Below, one piece after another: positions 30,621-57,163 of a stretch of 57,508 nucleotides of DNA. The notes under the pieces were generated by a model that saw only the letters and a program-made list of their open reading frames with translations, had not been told where the DNA came from and searched no databases. The stretch lies in assembly GCF_000423585.1 (NCBI RefSeq), contig NZ_KE384054.1:202664-260171 (forward strand), given 5' to 3'. The translations under genes and the position numbers were made by a program. This DNA is from Salinimicrobium xinjiangense DSM 19287 (GTDB lineage: Bacteria > Bacteroidota > Bacteroidia > Flavobacteriales > Flavobacteriaceae). The first letter of the stretch is position 1. Every line of letters starts with the position of its first letter.

Positions 30621-30683
30621 AAGAATCAAGACCGCAGCGCTGCCTGCTGGCAAGCGAGCTTCTAGAAGCAAAGAACAAGACTT
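30621..30683. repeat. Degenerate heptad-phased array
   Basis: It begins 2 nt after the lipoprotein stop. In 7-bp steps the outer words share AAGA at one phase: AAGAATC (30621), AAGACCG (30628), AAAGAAC (30670) and AAGACTT (30677). The middle (30635-30662) is a GC-rich segment in register. Confidence 0.6.
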
Positions 30684-35332: not shown

Positions 35333-35388
35333 TCTACTATCTCTCATCTACTATCTCCCGACTACTACCGTCTATTTTCTACTATCTA
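35333..35388. repeat. Degenerate heptad array overlapping a stop codon
   Basis: Eight units in 7-bp register on the plus strand include TCTACTA (35333 and 35347) and ACTACTA (35361). The stop codon of the AI-2E family gene (35372-35374) lies inside, so the array encodes that protein's last residues. Confidence 0.8.
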
Positions 35389-36421
35389 CCGCCTTTTTTT
35401 CCATAGGCTTAACATAAAGATCCTGCACCAGGATAATAATGATCAATACTAGAGGAGTTGCGAAAACCACTCCCCAAATTCCTGTCATTGCTCCCACAAA
35501 AAGCTGGGAAAGAATGATCAGAGCCGGCGGGATCTTTATCAGCTTTTTTTGGGCCTGCGGATTTATCAAACTGCTTTCGAGAAGTTGTATTCCGGTGTAG
35601 AGAATAGCGACAATAAGGGCAGTGGTAGGATTAATTGCCAAACCTATAAGTACAGCAGGGATCATGGCAGCTAAAGGTCCGAAATTAGGAATAAAATTCA
35701 GGATCCCCGCAATAAGAGCCAAAGTGAGCCACATAGGGAAGCCGAGAATTACCAGTCCTATAGCGGTTAATACAAAAACTGCCAGCATGGCAATAAATTT
35801 TGCCGCCAGCCATTTGGTTAAGCCTGTTCCCAAATGTTCCAGTACCTCTTCTGCCTTTTCTCTTTTAGGTGGAGGAACAAGATGAATGATACCGTTTTTG
35901 TAAAGCCCGGGAGAAATAGTGAAGAATATTCCAATAAGCAGGATGATATAAATGTCTCCTAATCCACCAAAAGTGGTCATAAAGAAGCGACTAATAAAAT
36001 TTGGTAAGTCATCTGAATTTTGCAACTCTTCTATTTGCTCAAGAACTTCCCTGCCTACACGACTACCACTCAGGGATTGTTGTGCATCATTTACTAACTG
36101 CGGAAAAGTTTCTTCGATCTGTGATGCCTGCGAGCTTACGGTAGCTCCTATAAGCCAAAAAATGCCTGCGGCGACCAAAATTGATCCCAATAATGAAATT
36201 GACATTGTGATTTTCCTGCTCCAGCCCGTCTTTTTTGCTATAAAGGAGCTCAAGCCTCTAAAGAAGCAAGCGATCAATGCTCCGGCAAGTACAAGAATGA
36301 GTATATTGAAAGTAGCTTCAAAGATAAGGAGCAGAGTAGCTATAAGGGAGAAAATTCCGCCCACTATCCAAACCTTTTGTACAAAAGAATAATGGGGTTC
36401 TGCTTCTTGGGAATCTGGCAT
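35372..36421 (-). CDS. AI-2E family (PerM/YdiK-type) membrane transporter
   Basis: A 349-residue integral membrane protein with about eight helices. The N terminus has two helices (VGGIFSLIATLLLIF and LILVLAGALIACFFRGLS). A soluble loop with LSGSRVGREVLEQIEEL follows, then the conserved block FPMWLTLALIAGILNFIPNFGPLAAMIPAVLIGL typical of this family. Members export small metabolites or ions; autoinducer-2 transport is not shown for most. Its final residues (VDSRK) fall within a heptad DNA array, so the C terminus may be variable among strains. Confidence 0.88.
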   Translation of the reverse strand: MPDSQEAEPHYSFVQKVWIVGGIFSLIATLLLIFEATFNILILVLAGALIACFFRGLSSFIAKKTGWSRKITMSISLLGSILVAAGIFWLIGATVSSQASQIEETFPQLVNDAQQSLSGSRVGREVLEQIEELQNSDDLPNFISRFFMTTFGGLGDIYIILLIGIFFTISPGLYKNGIIHLVPPPKREKAEEVLEHLGTGLTKWLAAKFIAMLAVFVLTAIGLVILGFPMWLTLALIAGILNFIPNFGPLAAMIPAVLIGLAINPTTALIVAILYTGIQLLESSLINPQAQKKLIKIPPALIILSQLFVGAMTGIWGVVFATPLVLIIIILVQDLYVKPMEKKAVDSRK

Positions 36422-36503: not shown

Positions 36504-36573
36504 CAAGCACCAGGCACCAAATTCCAAGCACCAAATTCCAAGCACCGAATTCCAAGCAGGAAATTCCAAATCC
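36504..36573. repeat. Degenerate heptad-phased array, ten units
   Basis: A continuous 7-bp register alternates CAAGCAC-like and CAAATTC-like words, e.g. CAAGCAC at 36504, 36525 and 36539 and CAAATTC at 36518 and 36532. It is the reverse-complement relative of words in the 552-656 array. Confidence 0.88.
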
Positions 36574-36791: not shown

Positions 36792-36854
36792 AGTCTTGGC
36801 TCCTGGTTCTTAGTTCTAGATTTTATTCCCAACCTTGAATTTTGAACCTTGAAT
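36792..36854. repeat. Degenerate heptad-phased array next to the polA stop
   Basis: Nine 7-bp units in register on the plus strand run from AGTCTTG (36792) through GTTCTTA (36806) to CTTGAAT (36834 and 36848), ending 3 nt before the polA stop codon (36858). Confidence 0.8.
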
Positions 36855-36857
36855 TGT

Positions 36858-39683
36858 TTAATGTGCTTCCAGCCAATTCTCTCCCACACCAAGATCTACA
36901 TCGAGCGGGACATCCATTGTAAAGGCATTCTCCATTTCGCTTTTTACGAGATTCTGTATCTTTTCCAGCTCGGGTCTGTAAACATCAAAGACAAGTTCAT
37001 CATGCACCTGTAGCAGCATCTTTGTTCTGTAGTTGCCTTCCTCCAGCTTTTTATGGATATTGATCATTGCCAGCTTTATAATATCGGCGGCACTTCCCTG
37101 GATCGGTGCGTTCACTGCGTTTCTTTCGGCGGCACCACGCACTACGGCATTCTGGGAATTGATGTCCTTTAGATATCTTCTTCTTCCTAAAACCGTTTGA
37201 ACATATCCATGTTCCCTAGCGAAATCTATTTGTTCACTTATGAAATTCCGCAGCTTCGGATAGGTCTTATAATAGGTATCGATAAGGTCTTTAGCTTCGC
37301 CTCTGGAAAGATTCGTCTGGTTGCTCAACCCAAATGCCGATACTCCATACACAATTCCGAAGTTTACCGTTTTGGCATTGCTTCGCTGTTCCCGGGTCAC
37401 TTCTTCAATAGGAACATTAAAGACCTTTGCAGCAGTTGAGGCATGAATGTCCTGCTTTTGCTGAAAAGCTGAGATCATATTATCTTCCTTGCTCAAAGAA
37501 GCAATAATTCGTAATTCTATTTGAGAATAATCGGCAGCCAGCAGGATGTGATCTGCATCTCGGGGTACGAAGGCTTTTCTCACCTGCCGTCCTCTCTCGG
37601 TTCTTATAGGAATATTCTGCAGGTTGGGGTTATTCGAACTTAATCTACCCGTCGCAGCAACCGTTTGCATATAATCTGTATGCACTCTTCCGGTAGTTTC
37701 ATCTACCTGCAGGGGCAGTGCGTCTATATAGGTGTTTTTCAGTTTCACGAGTCCGCGATAATCCAGTACCTGCCTTACAATATTGTGCTGTGGAGCCAGA
37801 GCAGAGAGAATTTCCTCCCCCGTAGAATATTGGCCTGACTTTGTCTTTTTTGGCTTTTCAACCAGTCTAAGTTTTTCAAAAAGAATAACTCCCAGTTGCT
37901 TTGGGGAACCAATATTGAACTCTTCTCCTGCGGTCTCAAAAATGTCTTTTTCGAGGCTGCTTATATCTTTCTCTAATGCTTCGGAAAGGCTTGCCAGAAA
38001 ATCTTTATCCAGTCTTATCCCTTCGATTTCCATGTCGGCCAGTACCCGTACCAGCGGAATCTCAATTTCATTGAACAATTTCTCTGTCCCTGCTTCCTTG
38101 AGTTCGGGCGTAAAATGCTGCTTTAGCTGAAGGATCACATCGGCATCTTCTACGCTGAATTCCGTTTGCTTATCCAGCGGAATGTCCCTCATAGACCTCT
38201 GATTCTTACCTTTACCCAAAAGCTCTTCCACAAATACTGGGCTGTAGTTCAAATAAGTTTCCGAAAGTACATCAAGGCTGTGACGCATATCCGGGTTTAT
38301 TAGGTAATGCGCCAGCATAGTGTCAAAAAGGGGACCTCTGAACTTTATATTATACTTCGCCAGTACCTTGATATCATGCTTCAGGTTTTGGCCCACCTTT
38401 TCAATATTTTCAGATTCAAAGAAAGGTCGGAGGTTTTCTATTACCGCCTGGGCTTCGGTACGATCTTCGGGAAGGGGAAGGTAAAATCCTTTCCCGGCTT
38501 CCCAGGAAAATGCCACTCCAATTATTTCCGCGGAAAGCGGATTGAGTCCGGTAGTGGTGAATTCAAAACACACACATTTCTGCTTCATTAAATTCTGAAG
38601 AAAGAGCTGCATTGCCATGCCTGAAGCCACACTTTGATATACATGCGGCACCTCTTTGATCGTTTTTCTTCCCGAGAAGGATTCCAGGCTCTCTGTAGCT
38701 TCCCCTCCAAAAAGGGAAAATTGGCCTGCTCCTGCCGGCTGGGCCTGGGCTTTGCCTGTTGGGGTGCTTGTGACCTGGGTAGGCCTTGCTGTTTCCTCGC
38801 CTGAGAAAAGCTTTAGGAACTGATCTTTGAGGCGGCGGAATTCCAATTCCTCAAAAAGCTCCTGTACCTTTTCTGAATCGGGCATGGAAAGCTCGTAATC
38901 TTCGGCGTGGAACTGCACCTTACAATCAGTCATTATGGCTGCCAGTTTTTTGGAGATGCGGCCAAGTTCTGCATTGGCTTCCACTTTTTCACGCATTTTA
39001 CCTTTCAGCTTATCTGTGTTGGCCAGGAGGTTTTCCATGCTTCCGAATTCCTTCAGAAACTTTTTTGCTGTTTTTTCACCCACTCCGGGTAATCCGGGAA
39101 TATTGTCCACGGCATCACCCATCATTCCGAGGTAATCTATCACCTGCTCGGGCCGCTCCACTTCAAATTTCTTCTGAACTTCAGGAATCCCCCAGATCTC
39201 AATTCCGTTACCCATACGGGCAGGACGGTACATGAAAATATTTTCAGAAACCAACTGCGCGAAATCCTTGTCGGGTGTGACCATAAAGACTTTGTAACCT
39301 TCTTTTTCTGCCTGTTTGGCCAGGGTTCCAATAATGTCATCGGCTTCACAACCGGGGAGAACCACCACCGGAATATGCATGGCTTTAAGAATGTTCTGTA
39401 TATAAGGAATTGCCTGCATGATAGGTTCGGGTGTTGCATCGCGGTGCGCTTTGTAAGCTACGAACATTTCTGTTCGCACCACACTTCCTTCCTTGTCAAA
39501 ACAAACCGCCAGATGATCTGGCCGCTCCCTTCTTATCACATCAAAAAGAGAATTCATGAAACCCATTATAGCCGAGGTATCCTGGCCTTTGGAATTGACG
39601 ATCGGGTTATTTATAAAAGCATAATATCCTCTAAAGATGAGGGCGTATGCGTCTAGAAGGAATAAGCGTTTTTGTTCGGCCAT
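36858..39683 (-). CDS. polA: DNA polymerase I
   Basis: Fills gaps and removes RNA primers in replication and repair. The 941-residue protein has three domains. The 5'-nuclease is at about 1-290 (LLDAYALIFRGYYAF, GCEADDIIG, VTPDKDFAQL, DYLGMMGDAVDNIPGLPGVG). The 3'-5' exonuclease is at about 350-540. The polymerase is from about 570 (LLAADYSQIELRIIASL, RRYLKDINSQN, LLQVHDELVFDV). The exonuclease domain keeps the second acidic site (GQNLKHDIKVLAKY), but its first motif reads CFEFTTTGLN where the active family form is FDTETxxL. Proofreading may therefore be lost; polymerase and flap-nuclease residues are intact. Confidence 0.96.
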   Translation of the reverse strand: MAEQKRLFLLDAYALIFRGYYAFINNPIVNSKGQDTSAIMGFMNSLFDVIRRERPDHLAVCFDKEGSVVRTEMFVAYKAHRDATPEPIMQAIPYIQNILKAMHIPVVVLPGCEADDIIGTLAKQAEKEGYKVFMVTPDKDFAQLVSENIFMYRPARMGNGIEIWGIPEVQKKFEVERPEQVIDYLGMMGDAVDNIPGLPGVGEKTAKKFLKEFGSMENLLANTDKLKGKMREKVEANAELGRISKKLAAIMTDCKVQFHAEDYELSMPDSEKVQELFEELEFRRLKDQFLKLFSGEETARPTQVTSTPTGKAQAQPAGAGQFSLFGGEATESLESFSGRKTIKEVPHVYQSVASGMAMQLFLQNLMKQKCVCFEFTTTGLNPLSAEIIGVAFSWEAGKGFYLPLPEDRTEAQAVIENLRPFFESENIEKVGQNLKHDIKVLAKYNIKFRGPLFDTMLAHYLINPDMRHSLDVLSETYLNYSPVFVEELLGKGKNQRSMRDIPLDKQTEFSVEDADVILQLKQHFTPELKEAGTEKLFNEIEIPLVRVLADMEIEGIRLDKDFLASLSEALEKDISSLEKDIFETAGEEFNIGSPKQLGVILFEKLRLVEKPKKTKSGQYSTGEEILSALAPQHNIVRQVLDYRGLVKLKNTYIDALPLQVDETTGRVHTDYMQTVAATGRLSSNNPNLQNIPIRTERGRQVRKAFVPRDADHILLAADYSQIELRIIASLSKEDNMISAFQQKQDIHASTAAKVFNVPIEEVTREQRSNAKTVNFGIVYGVSAFGLSNQTNLSRGEAKDLIDTYYKTYPKLRNFISEQIDFAREHGYVQTVLGRRRYLKDINSQNAVVRGAAERNAVNAPIQGSAADIIKLAMINIHKKLEEGNYRTKMLLQVHDELVFDVYRPELEKIQNLVKSEMENAFTMDVPLDVDLGVGENWLEAH

Positions 39684-39720
39684 GGAAAAAATTTTGGAAG
39701 GCTAAAATTACAAAACTAAA

Positions 39721-39811
39721 ATGAGTATTGAGAAGTGAGTAGTGAGTATTGAGATTGATCAAAGATTAATGAACAATGAACAATGATCAGTGGCCAGTGG
39801 TCGGTGGTCAG
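39721..39811. repeat. Heptad-phased array with gradual word drift, 13 units
   Basis: Thirteen consecutive 7-bp units with no slip. Words start as GTGAGTA (39735, 39742), pass through TGAACAA (39770, 39777), and end as TGGTCAG (39805). It starts 37 nt upstream of the polA ATG. Confidence 0.9.
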
Positions 39812-39910
39812 TATGACCCCGATGAACAGTGGAGCTACCGTGGAAAATGGATTTTCAGGAAGATAGAATTTAGATTTTAGAAGTACAATTTTCGATTTTC
39901 TGCTTTTGCC

Positions 39911-40003
39911 AGCCCCAGCGGGGCGAAATATTGGTAGCCCGGGGTGTAAACCCGGGATCAAAAAGTGCCACCTCCAAAAAGAGCCCCGGAGGGGCGAAAT
40001 ATT
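39911..40003. repeat. Pair of AGCCCC-type REP palindromes
   Basis: AGCCCCAGCGGGGCGAAATA at 39911 and AGCCCCGGAGGGGCGAAATA at 39982 are direct copies of a hairpin-forming unit. A CCCGGG-N-CCCGGG inverted pair sits between them (about 39938-39956). Confidence 0.85.
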
Positions 40004-40097
40004 TCCGGTTGTGATTACAATATTAATTAAGTCTTATGATAGTGGTCAGAAAAAAGTCTGCAGTGCATAGCTTTAAAGTTGGCAGTAAAACAATAGT

Positions 40098-40310
40098 TAG
40101 ATTTTAGAAGTTAGAAGTATGAGTTTAGTGGTTCAATGTTCAGTTATCAGAAAATTAAAGAAACTGCTGGATCTTGAATTTTGAATGGTTTACTGGCAAA
40201 CAGGGAACTGGCAACAGGCATCAGGCAATAGCTACAATCCGCAACTTGCAACCACTTGCAACCTGCAATTACATTATACCTTATTCCCTATACCTTAAAC
40301 CCTTAAACGG
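40098..40310. repeat. Long heptad-phased array running into a stop codon
   Basis: About 30 units. Examples in register are TAGAAGT (40105, 40112), AACTGGC (40206), AACAGGC (40213) and ATACCTT (40276, 40290). The last units cover the stop codon of the sugar transporter (40303-40305). Together with the blocks at about 39860-39903 and 39721-39811 it fills most of the intergenic region 39684-40302, in which no gene is supported. Confidence 0.88.
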
Positions 40311-41616
40311 CTACTTCAGTTTTCTTGTGCTTAAAGCCGTAGAACATGATGTATCCATAGCAAAGCATTACAAGAATAAGAGCAAGATTAAATCCGAAGG
40401 AATCTGTAAGGTATCCAAAGGCAGGAGGTACAACTGCACCTCCAACAATCATCGTACAAAGTACTCCAGATCCCTGAGGCTTATTGTCACCCAGGCCATC
40501 CAGCGCCAAACTAAAAATAGTAGGGAACATGATGGAATTGAAAAGTCCCACCGCAATGAGAGACCACATGGCTACCAGTCCTGTAGTTAGATTGGAAATT
40601 AGTACCAGGCCAATAGCACAGGCGGCAAAAACAGTCAGTACAACAGCCGGATTGATGATCTTGGTGAGATAGGAACCTATAAATCGTCCAATCATTGCGC
40701 CGGTCCAGTAGAAGGTCACAAATACTCCCACGATTGCCATATCTGTGGAGGTGGTCACTCCCGAAGTAAGAATATACTCTGCCAGAGTTCGCATGAACGG
40801 GGTCTCCCGTATCACATCGGGCAGGTTAAGACTTAAAAAGTAATTTACCATATAAGATCCAATGGCGACCTCGGCACCTACGTAGAAGAATATTCCGAAG
40901 GCACCCATCACCAGATTACGGTTCTTGAGAACTACGCCATAATCATTGGAAGCTTCGGTATCTGTAACCTTCGGAAGGTTAACAAATGTGAATACCAAAG
41001 CAATAAGTATAATAAACACGGCTATTCCCAGAAAAGGAGTTTGCACGGCAGCAGCTTCTGAAGCATAATATTTCACCCGCTCGGCTTCGGTCATAAAGGC
41101 AATCTCATCCCTTGTCATCACCTTGTCACTAAGAATAAAAAGAGCACCCAAAGCAGGAGCAATAGCGGTCCCCAGGGAATTAAAAGCCTGCGACAGGTTG
41201 AGTCGGCTGGATGCAGTTTTTTCAGGTCCAAGGATGGTCACATATGGATTGGCTGCTACCTGCAGGATAGTGATCCCTCCCGCCAGGATAAAATAACCAA
41301 CCATGAAGATCCCGAATACCCGGTAGGATGCTGCGGGCCAGAAAAGCAAACATCCGGTGGCCATGGTCAAAAGGCCTAAGACTATTCCTTTTTTATATCC
41401 AATTTTTGAGAGTAGCCAACCTGCAGGGATGGATAAAAGAAAATAGGCTCCAAAAAAGGCAAATTGTACCATTCCTGCCTGGAAATAGCTGAGGGTAAAA
41501 ACCTCACGCAATCGCGGAATAAGGGAATCCACCAGGACGGTAATAAAGCCCCAGAGAAAGAACAGGATTGTAACGAATATAAATGCGGTGCGATAGGATT
41601 TTCTTGTGTTTTCCAT
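40303..41616 (-). CDS. MFS sugar:proton symporter (FucP/GluP/NagP type)
   Basis: A 437-residue inner-membrane transporter with twelve predicted helices of the fucose-galactose-glucose family. ITVLVDSLIPRLREVFTLSY near the N terminus, GYKKGIVLGL, AANPYVTILGPEKTASSRLN and the MIGRFIGSYL repeat are characteristic. It is coupled to an exported glycosylasparaginase upstream (2-nt gap), so the likely cargo is a sugar released from Asn-linked glycan, such as N-acetylglucosamine. The end of the gene lies in a heptad array. Confidence 0.88.
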   Translation of the reverse strand: MENTRKSYRTAFIFVTILFFLWGFITVLVDSLIPRLREVFTLSYFQAGMVQFAFFGAYFLLSIPAGWLLSKIGYKKGIVLGLLTMATGCLLFWPAASYRVFGIFMVGYFILAGGITILQVAANPYVTILGPEKTASSRLNLSQAFNSLGTAIAPALGALFILSDKVMTRDEIAFMTEAERVKYYASEAAAVQTPFLGIAVFIILIALVFTFVNLPKVTDTEASNDYGVVLKNRNLVMGAFGIFFYVGAEVAIGSYMVNYFLSLNLPDVIRETPFMRTLAEYILTSGVTTSTDMAIVGVFVTFYWTGAMIGRFIGSYLTKIINPAVVLTVFAACAIGLVLISNLTTGLVAMWSLIAVGLFNSIMFPTIFSLALDGLGDNKPQGSGVLCTMIVGGAVVPPAFGYLTDSFGFNLALILVMLCYGYIMFYGFKHKKTEVAV

Positions 41617-55563: not shown

Positions 55564-56928
55564 ATGAGCACTTCTTTAATTCAGAAATACAATGTTCCCG
55601 GACCCAGATATACTAGTTATCCCACGGTACCGTACTGGAACGAAGCCGAATTTACGGTTGAAGCATATAAAGACACTCTTAAAAAGTCATTTTTGGAGAG
55701 TAACAGCGAAGAAGGAATAAGTCTGTACATTCATCTTCCATTCTGCGAGAGCCTGTGTACATTTTGTGGCTGCAATAAGCGAATTACCAAACGCCACGAG
55801 GTGGAATCTCCCTATATAGCAGCAGTGCTGGAGGAATGGGATATGTATGTAAGACTGCTGGAGGAAAAGCCGGTGATAAAAGAGATCCATCTTGGAGGGG
55901 GAACCCCAACTTTCTTTTCGCCCGCCAATCTCCGGATCCTTATTGAGGGTCTTTTTGAGAAAGCCGAAAGGGCAGAGGATACCGATTTCAGTTTTGAAGG
56001 TCACCCTAATAATACTAAAAAGGAGCACCTGGAATTACTCTACGAACTTGGATTCACACGTGTGAGTTATGGGGTGCAGGATTATAATATAGAAGTGCAG
56101 AGAGCCATTCATCGTTTTCAGCCTTTTGTGAATGTAAAAAATGCGACCGAACAGGCACGGGAAATAGGTTACACCTCGGTGGGCCACGACTTGATCTTTG
56201 GTCTGCCTTTCCAAACCGTCGACCATATTCGGGAGACGATTGCCAAGACGAAGGAGCTGATGCCGGACAGGATCGCGTTTTACAGCTACGCACACGTGCC
56301 ATGGATCAAAGGAAATGGCCAACGGGGGTTTAAGGAAGAGGATCTTCCCACTGCCTCTGTGAAACGCGAAATGTATGAAATTGGAAAGCAGCTGCTTTTT
56401 GAAGCCGGTTATGTTGAAGTGGGCATGGATCACTTTGCATTAAAAACAGACACCCTCTATAAATCTATGGAAAACGCGAAATTGCATCGCAATTTCATGG
56501 GCTACACCTCGTCAAAGACCAAGGTGATGATTGGACTCGGAGTTTCTGCCATTAGCGATAGCTGGACAGGTTTTGCACAAAACGTAAAGACCATTGAGGA
56601 ATATTATGAGATCCTTGAAAAAGGAGAGCTGCCTCTTTATCGGGGACATATTCTGACTGCCGAAGACGAGAAATTACGTCGCCACATCCTCAACATCATG
56701 TGTAATCTTCACACCTCGTGGAAAAAGGAAGAAATGAAATTTTCTGAACTGCCTGAAGTACTTATCAAGCTGAAGGAAATGGAAGCCGACGGGCTTTTGG
56801 AATTTGGAGATGAGGAACTGACTGTAAAAGAAAGCGGAAGACCTTTTGTGAGAAATATTTGCATGGCATTTGATCTTTTACTCCAACGCAGCAAACCCGA
56901 AACCAAATTGTTTTCCATGACAATTTAG
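55564..56928 (+). CDS. hemN: Oxygen-independent coproporphyrinogen III oxidase
   Basis: A radical SAM enzyme converting coproporphyrinogen III to protoporphyrinogen IX without oxygen, in heme synthesis. The N terminus has VPGPRYTSYPTVPYW, the cluster motif LPFCESLCTFCGC (CxxxCxxC plus the extra Cys), HLGGGTPTFF, and a HemN C-terminal domain (AISDSWTGFAQN). It is 454 residues, close to E. coli HemN. It stands 97 bp after the DNA metabolism gene behind its own promoter. Confidence 0.96.
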   Translation: MSTSLIQKYNVPGPRYTSYPTVPYWNEAEFTVEAYKDTLKKSFLESNSEEGISLYIHLPFCESLCTFCGCNKRITKRHEVESPYIAAVLEEWDMYVRLLEEKPVIKEIHLGGGTPTFFSPANLRILIEGLFEKAERAEDTDFSFEGHPNNTKKEHLELLYELGFTRVSYGVQDYNIEVQRAIHRFQPFVNVKNATEQAREIGYTSVGHDLIFGLPFQTVDHIRETIAKTKELMPDRIAFYSYAHVPWIKGNGQRGFKEEDLPTASVKREMYEIGKQLLFEAGYVEVGMDHFALKTDTLYKSMENAKLHRNFMGYTSSKTKVMIGLGVSAISDSWTGFAQNVKTIEEYYEILEKGELPLYRGHILTAEDEKLRRHILNIMCNLHTSWKKEEMKFSELPEVLIKLKEMEADGLLEFGDEELTVKESGRPFVRNICMAFDLLLQRSKPETKLFSMTI

Positions 56929-56930
56929 AA

Positions 56931-57163
56931 GATTCAAGGTTCAAGATTCAATGAGCTAAAGCCGGATTTAATTCAGGATTTAAGGTTCAAAATCAAGATT
57001 CAATTTCCTGTTGTATCCAGTTGTCATCTCGACAGAGCAATTTCTTTTGATAAAAAGATATTGCGACGAGAGATCTCATTTATGGAAAACAGGACTTGAA
57101 ATACCTTTAGGTGGGGGAGAGAAATAGGATCCAGGATTTAAGGTTCAAAATTCAAGATTGAGT
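56931..57163. repeat. Heptad arrays in two blocks after hemN
   Basis: Block one begins 3 nt after the hemN stop with GATTCAA, GGTTCAA and GATTCAA (56931-56951) and resumes at 56971-57004. Block two is 57129-57163. ATTTAAG and GTTCAAA occur in both blocks in the same order (56978 and 57136), with one base lost in block one. The 57021-57079 dispersed repeat lies between the blocks. Confidence 0.8.
57021..57079. repeat. Dispersed repeat, copy B
   Basis: TTGTCATCTCGACAGAGCAA and ACGAGAGATCTCAT flank a diverged centre. It is the reverse complement of 36671-36731. Confidence 0.8.

Follow-up and report, generated by a model that had tools for sequence, protein, structure and literature searches.

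Drifting heptanucleotide arrays at gene ends in Salinimicrobium xinjiangense and its flavobacterial relatives

The intergenic DNA of Salinimicrobium xinjiangense DSM 19287 holds arrays of seven-nucleotide units whose word changes slowly along the array, and many of these arrays start at or very near the stop codon of a neighboring gene. They were noticed in a stretch of 57,508 nucleotides, here called the window (contig NZ_KE384054.1, positions 202,664 to 260,171; G000:C3:202664-260171, G000 being the window's own genome), for which an earlier note had pointed to eight places periodic at 7 bp. We consider it probable that the arrays are degenerate heptanucleotide minisatellites of gene ends, evolving by gain and loss of whole units together with point mutation. 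Apparently new are their start at stop codons, the register that a subset keeps with the gene's own stop, a single degenerate consensus, and a G-rich strand that points into the spacer. In the partly accessible literature that was searched, drift, consensus, general polarity and stop register were not found described; most subscription journals lay outside its coverage, so that this counts as weak evidence of novelty.

The excess of period 7 extends well beyond the window. In a sample of G000 made up of twenty 20-kb stretches and the window (457.5 kb, of which 52 kb are intergenic), intergenic identity exceeds that of shuffled sequence at lag 7 with z = 8.4, a comparison that the earlier note had proposed, and again at lags 14 (9.7), 21 (6.7) and 28 (3.8); lags 2 (4.5), 3 (8.6) and 15 (3.2) are also raised. 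Coding DNA of the same sample has no lag-7 peak, in agreement with the note's placement of the arrays in spacers. A local detector finds 37 period-7 arrays here, covering 4% of the intergenic DNA and lying in 22 of 242 spacers, as against 0.6 in shuffles; periods 4–6, 8–13 and 15 give zero to two arrays, and the harmonic 14 gives 15. Within the window itself, no array of period 5, 8, 10, 11 or 13 reaches the period-7 threshold. The four further genomes of a five-genome Salinimicrobium set (G000, G011, G006, G001 and G002; 1.66 Mb in total) contribute 19 (G011), 31 (G006), 7 (G001) and 2 (G002) arrays, with at most 5 at other periods. Lag 7 is raised in G006 (z 7.9) and G011 (4.8) and is weak in G001 and G002 (1.7 each), where lag 14 reaches 3.6 and 5.3, respectively.

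The drift of the word is as the earlier note described it. In 43 arrays of at least 49 bp from five genomes, identity between units at separations of one to eight falls steadily (0.70, 0.64, 0.55, 0.48, 0.45, 0.43, 0.42, 0.40), while units shuffled in order give 0.52–0.50; the excess between neighbors has z = 18. Local duplication with later point mutation is expected to give just such a decay. Whole 7-nucleotide units would be gained and lost through replication slippage or unequal exchange, and slippage with mutation, which the note had suggested, fits both the decay of unit identity and the reshuffling of orthologous arrays. Its statement that no mechanism had been described for the drift thus falls away, whole-unit slippage plus point mutation being an ordinary one.

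Comparison of orthologous spacers bears on the same point; the note had proposed one of array words and lengths among strains. Among 504 pairs, arrays occur in both members of 23, in one member of 36 and in neither of 445; a 405-bp strong "array" in G010 proved to be a run of N and was dropped, and its spacer may be among the 36. Orthologous arrays keep their place and word family with their units reshuffled. At L013:16171, L148:13359 and L247:1496, for example, one side has words of the TTAG/TGAG type and the other has CACTGANC words. The single clear whole-unit case is a pair of arrays in G011 (L142) and G004 (L237) that differ by three heptads (21 bp) with the order of variants kept. In five Flavobacterium loci (L081, L087, L089, L092 and L100), near 16–20 kb, an array reading TCAAATT TTAAATT CCAAATT and onward is nearly constant across species at what is seemingly one orthologous place, in contrast to the fast change seen in Salinimicrobium.

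The position of the arrays relative to genes is far from random. Over the five genomes, with 6 arrays at stretch ends left unclassified, there are 30 arrays in 28 kb of convergent spacers and 56 in 99 kb of tandem ones, but only 4 of the 90 classified arrays in 36 kb of divergent ones, which make up 22% of the base pairs. In G000, 18 of 37 arrays have an edge within 12 nt of a stop codon, where random placement within the same spacer predicts 4.2 and none of 2000 randomizations reaches 18; the contact with stops that the earlier note reported is thus significant. The same is seen in G011 (8 of 19 against 2.9 expected, p = 0.0005). Start codons, too, have more arrays close by than random placement gives: 6 in G000, where 3.2 are expected (p = 0.03), and 7 in G011, where the expectation is 2.2 (p = 0.0005). 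Start positions are rough, since genes were called throughout with a simple codon-usage caller. When stop-adjacent arrays are rescanned together with the coding sequence, 4 of 55 reach 13–19 nt into the gene and the remainder at most 8 nt, stop included, so that any change of protein C termini, which the note expected, is limited.

In a subset of arrays the stop codon itself is part of the phasing. In 61 arrays from seven genomes, found with the stop codon left out of the detection, the stop triplet of the gene itself occurs 41 times in phase and 19, 9, 21, 10, 5 and 6 times in the other phases (expected 15.9, p = 0.0002); stop triplets of any kind number 59 in phase against 32.5 (p = 0.005), with phase 3 next at 46. 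In 107 control arrays more than 40 nt from a stop, own-stop copies in phase equal the mean (22 and 22), as do those of any stop triplet (57 and 57). Identity to the stop in register is 0.42–0.49 per base over units 1–5 and 0.28–0.38 over units 6–11, a shifted register and array-free gene ends both giving 0.29–0.34. The polA gene offers individual cases: at seven of 80 named loci (L029–L108), an array lies no more than 14 nt from the polA stop. In a Gillisia polA (L032) the stop heptad TAGCAGT is the very unit repeated downstream, and the arrays at L072 (TGATCAG ... TGATCAG) and at Gramella L053 (TAGCAGT ATCCAGT GATCAGT) are likewise in register. Selection for stop-codon words was considered and rejected, the density of stops being 0.070 in stop-adjacent arrays, read in the sense of the gene, against 0.079 in column-permuted controls.

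On the minisatellite reading, the coding sequence would form a hard edge of the array, and in a subset of arrays the heptad that contains the stop would serve as a fixed unit 0. Such a heptad can be duplicated without damage to the protein and is therefore able to play this part; later units are free to mutate, and the word therefore drifts with distance. A bolder version, which we offer tentatively and hold to be less probable than its contrary, makes the stop codon the seed of a self-extending heptad repeat copied outward, with selection holding the stop fixed while later copies drift, and with a common biochemical bias, such as one of a polymerase, that would act also in the TAACTGA arrays of other phyla (see below) and would set both consensus and polarity.

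Words are indeed shared between spacers. Twenty-nine heptad classes occur in at least five spacers, as opposed to 4.3 (maximum 9) after permutation of columns within arrays, and one cyclic consensus, CTRAHHW on the C-rich strand, gives a log-likelihood gain of 864 against 602–630 in eight column-permuted controls. Outside Salinimicrobium this consensus fits Flavobacterium (z 3.7) and G023 (2.2), a genome of another family in the same order, with no clear fit in G064 (1.1), of another genus in the same family, or in the Gillisia group (1.1). With tandem copies counted repeatedly, CAGTGNTCAGTGNTCAGTG has 58 matches in G000, 29 in G003 and 25 in G006, and TTGGAATTTGGTGCTTGG has 32, 23 and 14. As search patterns, CAGTGNTC and TTGGAATTTGGTGC give 58 and 32 matches in G000, relatives giving fewer and G002 none for either; reversed-pattern controls give 0.

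The arrays are also polar. In the five genomes, arrays of a spacer's left half mostly carry more G than C on the + strand (47 to 13) and arrays of its right half more C than G (35 to 11; p = 2e-8); some spacers are orthologous, so that p-values pooled across Salinimicrobium genomes, this one included, overstate independence. The polarity is present in ++, -- and +- spacers, divergent spacers holding too few arrays to tell, and it has p = 3e-4 in the three genomes that were not used to notice the pattern; G002 alone shows nothing. Array-free spacers have a faint tendency only. Polarity extends to G064 (p = 0.028) and is a trend only in G023 (7:3 / 1:3); the Gillisia group gives 5:2 / 2:2 (p = 0.58). 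Flavobacterium loci show the reverse tendency, which is not significant (8:14 / 5:2, p = 0.19) and comes mostly from a single array found again in many species.

Among relatives, the distribution of arrays is patchy and their density varies, with G002 nearly empty. G064 carries 15 arrays covering 7% of its spacers (lag-7 z = 10.1), 3 of the 15 near a stop (p = 0.024). One region of that genome (L211, 6457–10430) holds very long drifting heptad arrays, some almost without repeated words, as well as an array present in two related copies that lie a few kb from each other. G023 has 10 period-7 arrays (lag-7 z 6.1); here enrichment at stops is absent (1 of 7 arrays) and enrichment at starts is present (4 of 7, p = 0.011). 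Of the 80 named loci around polA, arrays are present among those of Salinimicrobium, Gillisia, Gramella, Mesonia, Robertkochia and Flavobacterium. Maribacter, Muricauda and Dokdonia have single arrays, the 8 Salegentibacter loci have one between them, and the 20 loci of Aquimarina, 4 of Winogradskyella and 2 of Zunongwangia have none. The Flavobacterium loci give 29 arrays at period 7, 8 at period 8 and 6 at period 6.

Several observations weigh against the minisatellite reading or narrow it. The first steps of the identity decay are partly built in, because the detector favors similarity between neighbors. Slippage alone predicts neither the shared lexicon nor the polarity. When all stop trinucleotides are masked, arrays next to stops still have a skew of 0.19, down from 0.30, and those next to starts are equally polar (27 vs 4). 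The register is confined to a subset, 18 of 61 arrays having at least one own stop in phase against a mean of 7.2 for the other phases; taken genome by genome it reaches significance in G000 (p = 0.0015) and G001 (p = 0.04) but falls short of it in G011 (0.53) and in G006 (0.23), where phase 3 is higher. For 29 arrays of other named genera the count is 23 against 8.4 (p = 0.11), mostly from one Gillisia array, and of the seven array-adjacent polA ends the Mesonia pair (L068/L069) is out of register. Spacers with arrays are longer than their array-free orthologs in 24 of 36 cases, with a median difference of +4.5 bp where the median array is 27.5 bp, and so not clearly longer, and the closest pair of genomes, G005 and G008 (94–95% identical), has too few arrays to reveal 7-bp indels. 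Period 7 is, moreover, not always foremost: lag 9 (5.9) lies above lag 7 (4.8) in G011, and in G023 lags 6 (6.3) and 7 (6.1) are level, with 7 arrays of period 8 beside the 10 of period 7.

In the window, the places named in the earlier note were scored for 7-bp periodicity against 500 dinucleotide shuffles of the same stretch, which sets a floor of p = 0.002. Six of the eight reach it (35333–35388, 36504–36573, 36792–36854, 39721–39811, 40098–40310 and 56931–57163), two of them in part of their length: the fifth is periodic at 40098–40142 and 40199–40308, and the sixth at 56931–56951 and 57126–57161, with the rest of that stretch aperiodic. Of 552–656 only 640–656 holds up (p = 0.018), as some 2.5 copies of TTGGTGC in 17 bp, assigned to no strand, and 30621–30683 does not (p = 0.12). 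One array (39719–39811, - strand; score 43.2, p = 0.002) lies on the upstream side of polA (36858–39683, -) and is G-rich on the strand leaving that gene; on the + strand its words run from TTGAGTA through TGAACAA and TGATCAG to TGGTCAG, and its place holds arrays of other words in G003, G006, G008 and G011. Further along the same spacer lie a short array of TAGATTT/TAGAAGT that was absent from the note's list (39864–39900) and one running from TTAGAAG to TTCAATG (40098–40142, score 12.1), neither assigned to a strand, and then an array (40199–40308, -; score 25.8) that enters the stop (TAA, - strand, 40303–40305) of a major facilitator (MFS) transporter gene (40303–41616, -). The first of these lies within a dispersed intergenic element resembling repetitive extragenic palindromic (REP) sequences (39788–40049), with GTAG-like and GCCCC..GGGGC hairpins and copies in L002–L008. 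An 801-base query from this spacer has 51 matches in the genome, and some copies end in CAGTG heptads.

Downstream of polA, an array begins directly 3' of the stop (36794–36857, -; score 14.0, p = 0.002), at a site that holds arrays of different words in some other genera. Another, assigned to no strand, alternates CAAGCAC and CAAATTC in a 14-bp super-unit (36504–36571, p = 0.002), and an 18-mer built of these words has 32 matches in G000. A third (35333–35388, -; score 17.2, p = 0.002) crosses the stop (TAG, 35372–35374) of an AI-2E family transporter gene (35372–36421, -), TAG being repeated in register on both sides of it. Directly 3' of the stop of a radical-SAM gene (55564–56928, +), called hemN in the note, is a short AAGATTC/AAGGTTC array (56929–56951, +; scored against shuffles), and at the far end of that gene's downstream spacer is another (57126–57161, no strand assigned; score 11.6). 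A Pfam check identifies the array-adjacent genes as DNA polymerase I, an MFS transporter, an AI-2E transporter and a radical-SAM protein; the polymerase is 90–91% identical to polymerase I in four named Salinimicrobium records. Elsewhere in the window, 52–483 is a 194-bp tandem repeat (2.2 copies, 98% matches) that includes CCCTACGGGA palindromes, which resemble those flanking a Y1_Tnp gene at L229 of the same genome, similar to genes of REP-associated tyrosine transposases (RAYTs). G000 has seven Y1_Tnp (PF01797) matches in all, for example at C28:10777–11121, and two of the ten Salinimicrobium genomes, G002 and G010, have none.

A different origin would make the arrays dispersed mobile elements, akin to REPs or miniature inverted-repeat transposable elements (MITEs), with whole segments, heptads included, being copied between loci and spreading the words. 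The genus-wide lexicon (the counts for CAGTGNTCAGTGNTCAGTG and TTGGAATTTGGTGCTTGG against zero for reversed patterns), a related 24-base pattern that G000 has and none of the 117 other genomes sampled from the phylum shares, the focal spacer being partly a dispersed repeat of which some copies end in CAGTG heptads, and the fact that the only two of ten genomes lacking a Y1_Tnp match have the fewest word matches all agree with it. Yet hairpins of three narrow patterns occur in just 1 of 22 array-bearing spacers in G000 and 1 of 24 in G006, the flanks of four RAYT-like genes carry a different palindrome with a heptad array in only one of the four, and orthologous arrays are inherited in place. 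We regard this origin as unlikely; a RAYT/REP source in particular was set aside for its weak link to the arrays, although a dispersed hairpin element touches the focal one. That the arrays are instead selected sites, at which a protein or Rho would bind phased words in RNA or DNA, is a still less probable proposal; toward its Rho-type form, base skew was measured. The G-rich strand leads inward from either flank, and a transcript crossing the spacer would run through C-rich, G-poor sequence before reaching the next gene; a bidirectional insulator of the Rho type would need this. The shared CTRAHHW consensus, the polarity, much weaker in array-free spacers, and the scarcity of arrays in divergent spacers are all in keeping with the proposal. 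Arrays occupy few spacers, however, as the G000 sample shows; they are nearly absent from some related genera, Aquimarina and Salegentibacter among them; and, as RNA, array spacers fold no more strongly than others do. Selection for hairpins was rejected, 20 one-arm spacers having mean z of -2.35/-2.73 against -2.81/-2.91 for 24 array-free spacers, with only one two-arm spacer available.

The order of arms within a spacer is what one would expect if 3' ends at a spacer break were extended with G-rich heptads and then joined, in the geometry of fused telomeres: G-rich left and C-rich right is found in 15 of 15 unsplit same-spacer pairs, and in 28 of 36 when arrays are split wherever the skew changes, in either direction. 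In several spacers, though, the arms fail to abut, array-rich G064 has no Ku match and all 6 array-poor Salegentibacter genomes do have one, so that Ku presence does not track array density and Ku-dependent end healing is rejected; break healing in general strikes us as very improbable. A fourth account reverses the order of events at gene ends, the array being older, a frameshift having frayed the end of the gene, and the stop now coming from one of the array's units. Heptads place any triplet in all three frames, 17 of 42 ends with arrays have all three frames closed within 45 nt, compared with 128 of the 678 remaining ends, and the AI-2E gene's array extends into the coding end. Against these stand the small number of arrays (the 4 of 55 noted above) that reach 13–19 nt into a gene and the histidine codon that precedes the stop in the window's polA and in seven array-bearing polA genes; this shared codon suggests that at polA the stop position is older than the array. 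We hold stop capture, too, to be improbable. Template switching by fold-back copying, raised in the earlier note, is not supported as a general cause: complementarity between G-rich and C-rich pieces is no higher within a spacer than across spacers, whether in 28 pairs split G before C (mean 1.11 vs 1.05, p = 0.41) or in 36 split in both directions (1.07 vs 1.05, p = 0.46), and inverted 7-mers are shared in 2 of 36 array pairs within spacers and in 253 of 2175 between spacers. Three pairs did look strongly complementary, and such copying may occur at times.

Heptanucleotide repeats have precedents, and the Salinimicrobium arrays belong to a known kind. The short tandem repeats of cyanobacteria (STRRs) are intergenic heptanucleotide repeats that vary between related species, to which the earlier note rightly likened the arrays. 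Heptanucleotides are described as the most abundant class of long simple sequence repeats (LSSRs) in most prokaryote genomes, slippage having been proposed together with a 7-nt polymerase contact length (Mrazek et al., 2007, as relayed in PMC4679880 and PMC4692102), and heptamers as over-represented (PMC4692102). The 7-nt unit, the tandem excess over composition-matched controls and the intergenic location are common to LSSRs, STRRs and our arrays; by comparison with LSSRs as there portrayed, the Salinimicrobium arrays drift, follow one consensus, are polar and start at stops. As neighboring units are 70% and units eight apart 40% identical, they lack near-identical units and are a degenerate LSSR/STRR variant rather than a plain member.

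The closest counterparts are direct repeats of TAACTGA, found in Beggiatoaceae, Cyanobacteria and five Bacteroidetes, including Gramella forsetii (MacGregor, 2015; PMC4679880, the source for all that follows on them). These sets are intergenic and in places mixed with related heptads, and between two Cyanothece strains their indels come mainly in 7-nt steps. In BOGUAY they have 2–6 copies per set, mostly before start codons; the word stands forward before starts, orientation being mixed in Microcystis, and F. litoralis has one reverse set right after a stop. Some sets overlap stop codons, mostly oriented to the downstream gene. Elizabethkingia has "larger assemblages of heptamer repeats," and other heptamer repeats lie in spacers of Gramella forsetii and A. 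sublithincola. The likeness to the Salinimicrobium arrays lies in the intergenic heptads, the polarity and, as far as the one clear case goes, the indels by whole 7-nt units; the difference is one fixed word, drift or stop register not being found described in the part of that paper available. When heptad classes are ordered by their fit to the Salinimicrobium consensus, TAACTGA itself comes 21st of 1172; perfect pairs of it number 0 in the sampled spacers of seven genomes, and its class, as AACTGAT, is present as a degenerate unit in 4 spacers. The GGGAATC and GGGGA(C/T)T repeats of Xanthomonas and Nostoc, which are G-quadruplex words, are likewise heptanucleotide, intergenic and variable between related species (PMC4692102), but differ in word, GGGAATC ranking 284 and GGGGATT 626 of 1172.

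For comparative genomics the arrays carry a warning, in that 3' spacers are quickly rewritten here. Should register, lexicon and polarity hold genome-wide, the arrays would be a natural record of how a 7-nt slippage product starts, spreads and decays. With the stop codon as an unmoving reference in each array, the old question of what makes heptanucleotides dominant among the long repeats of bacteria would then become testable, and one rule could link the arrays of Flavobacteriia, Beggiatoaceae and Cyanobacteria.
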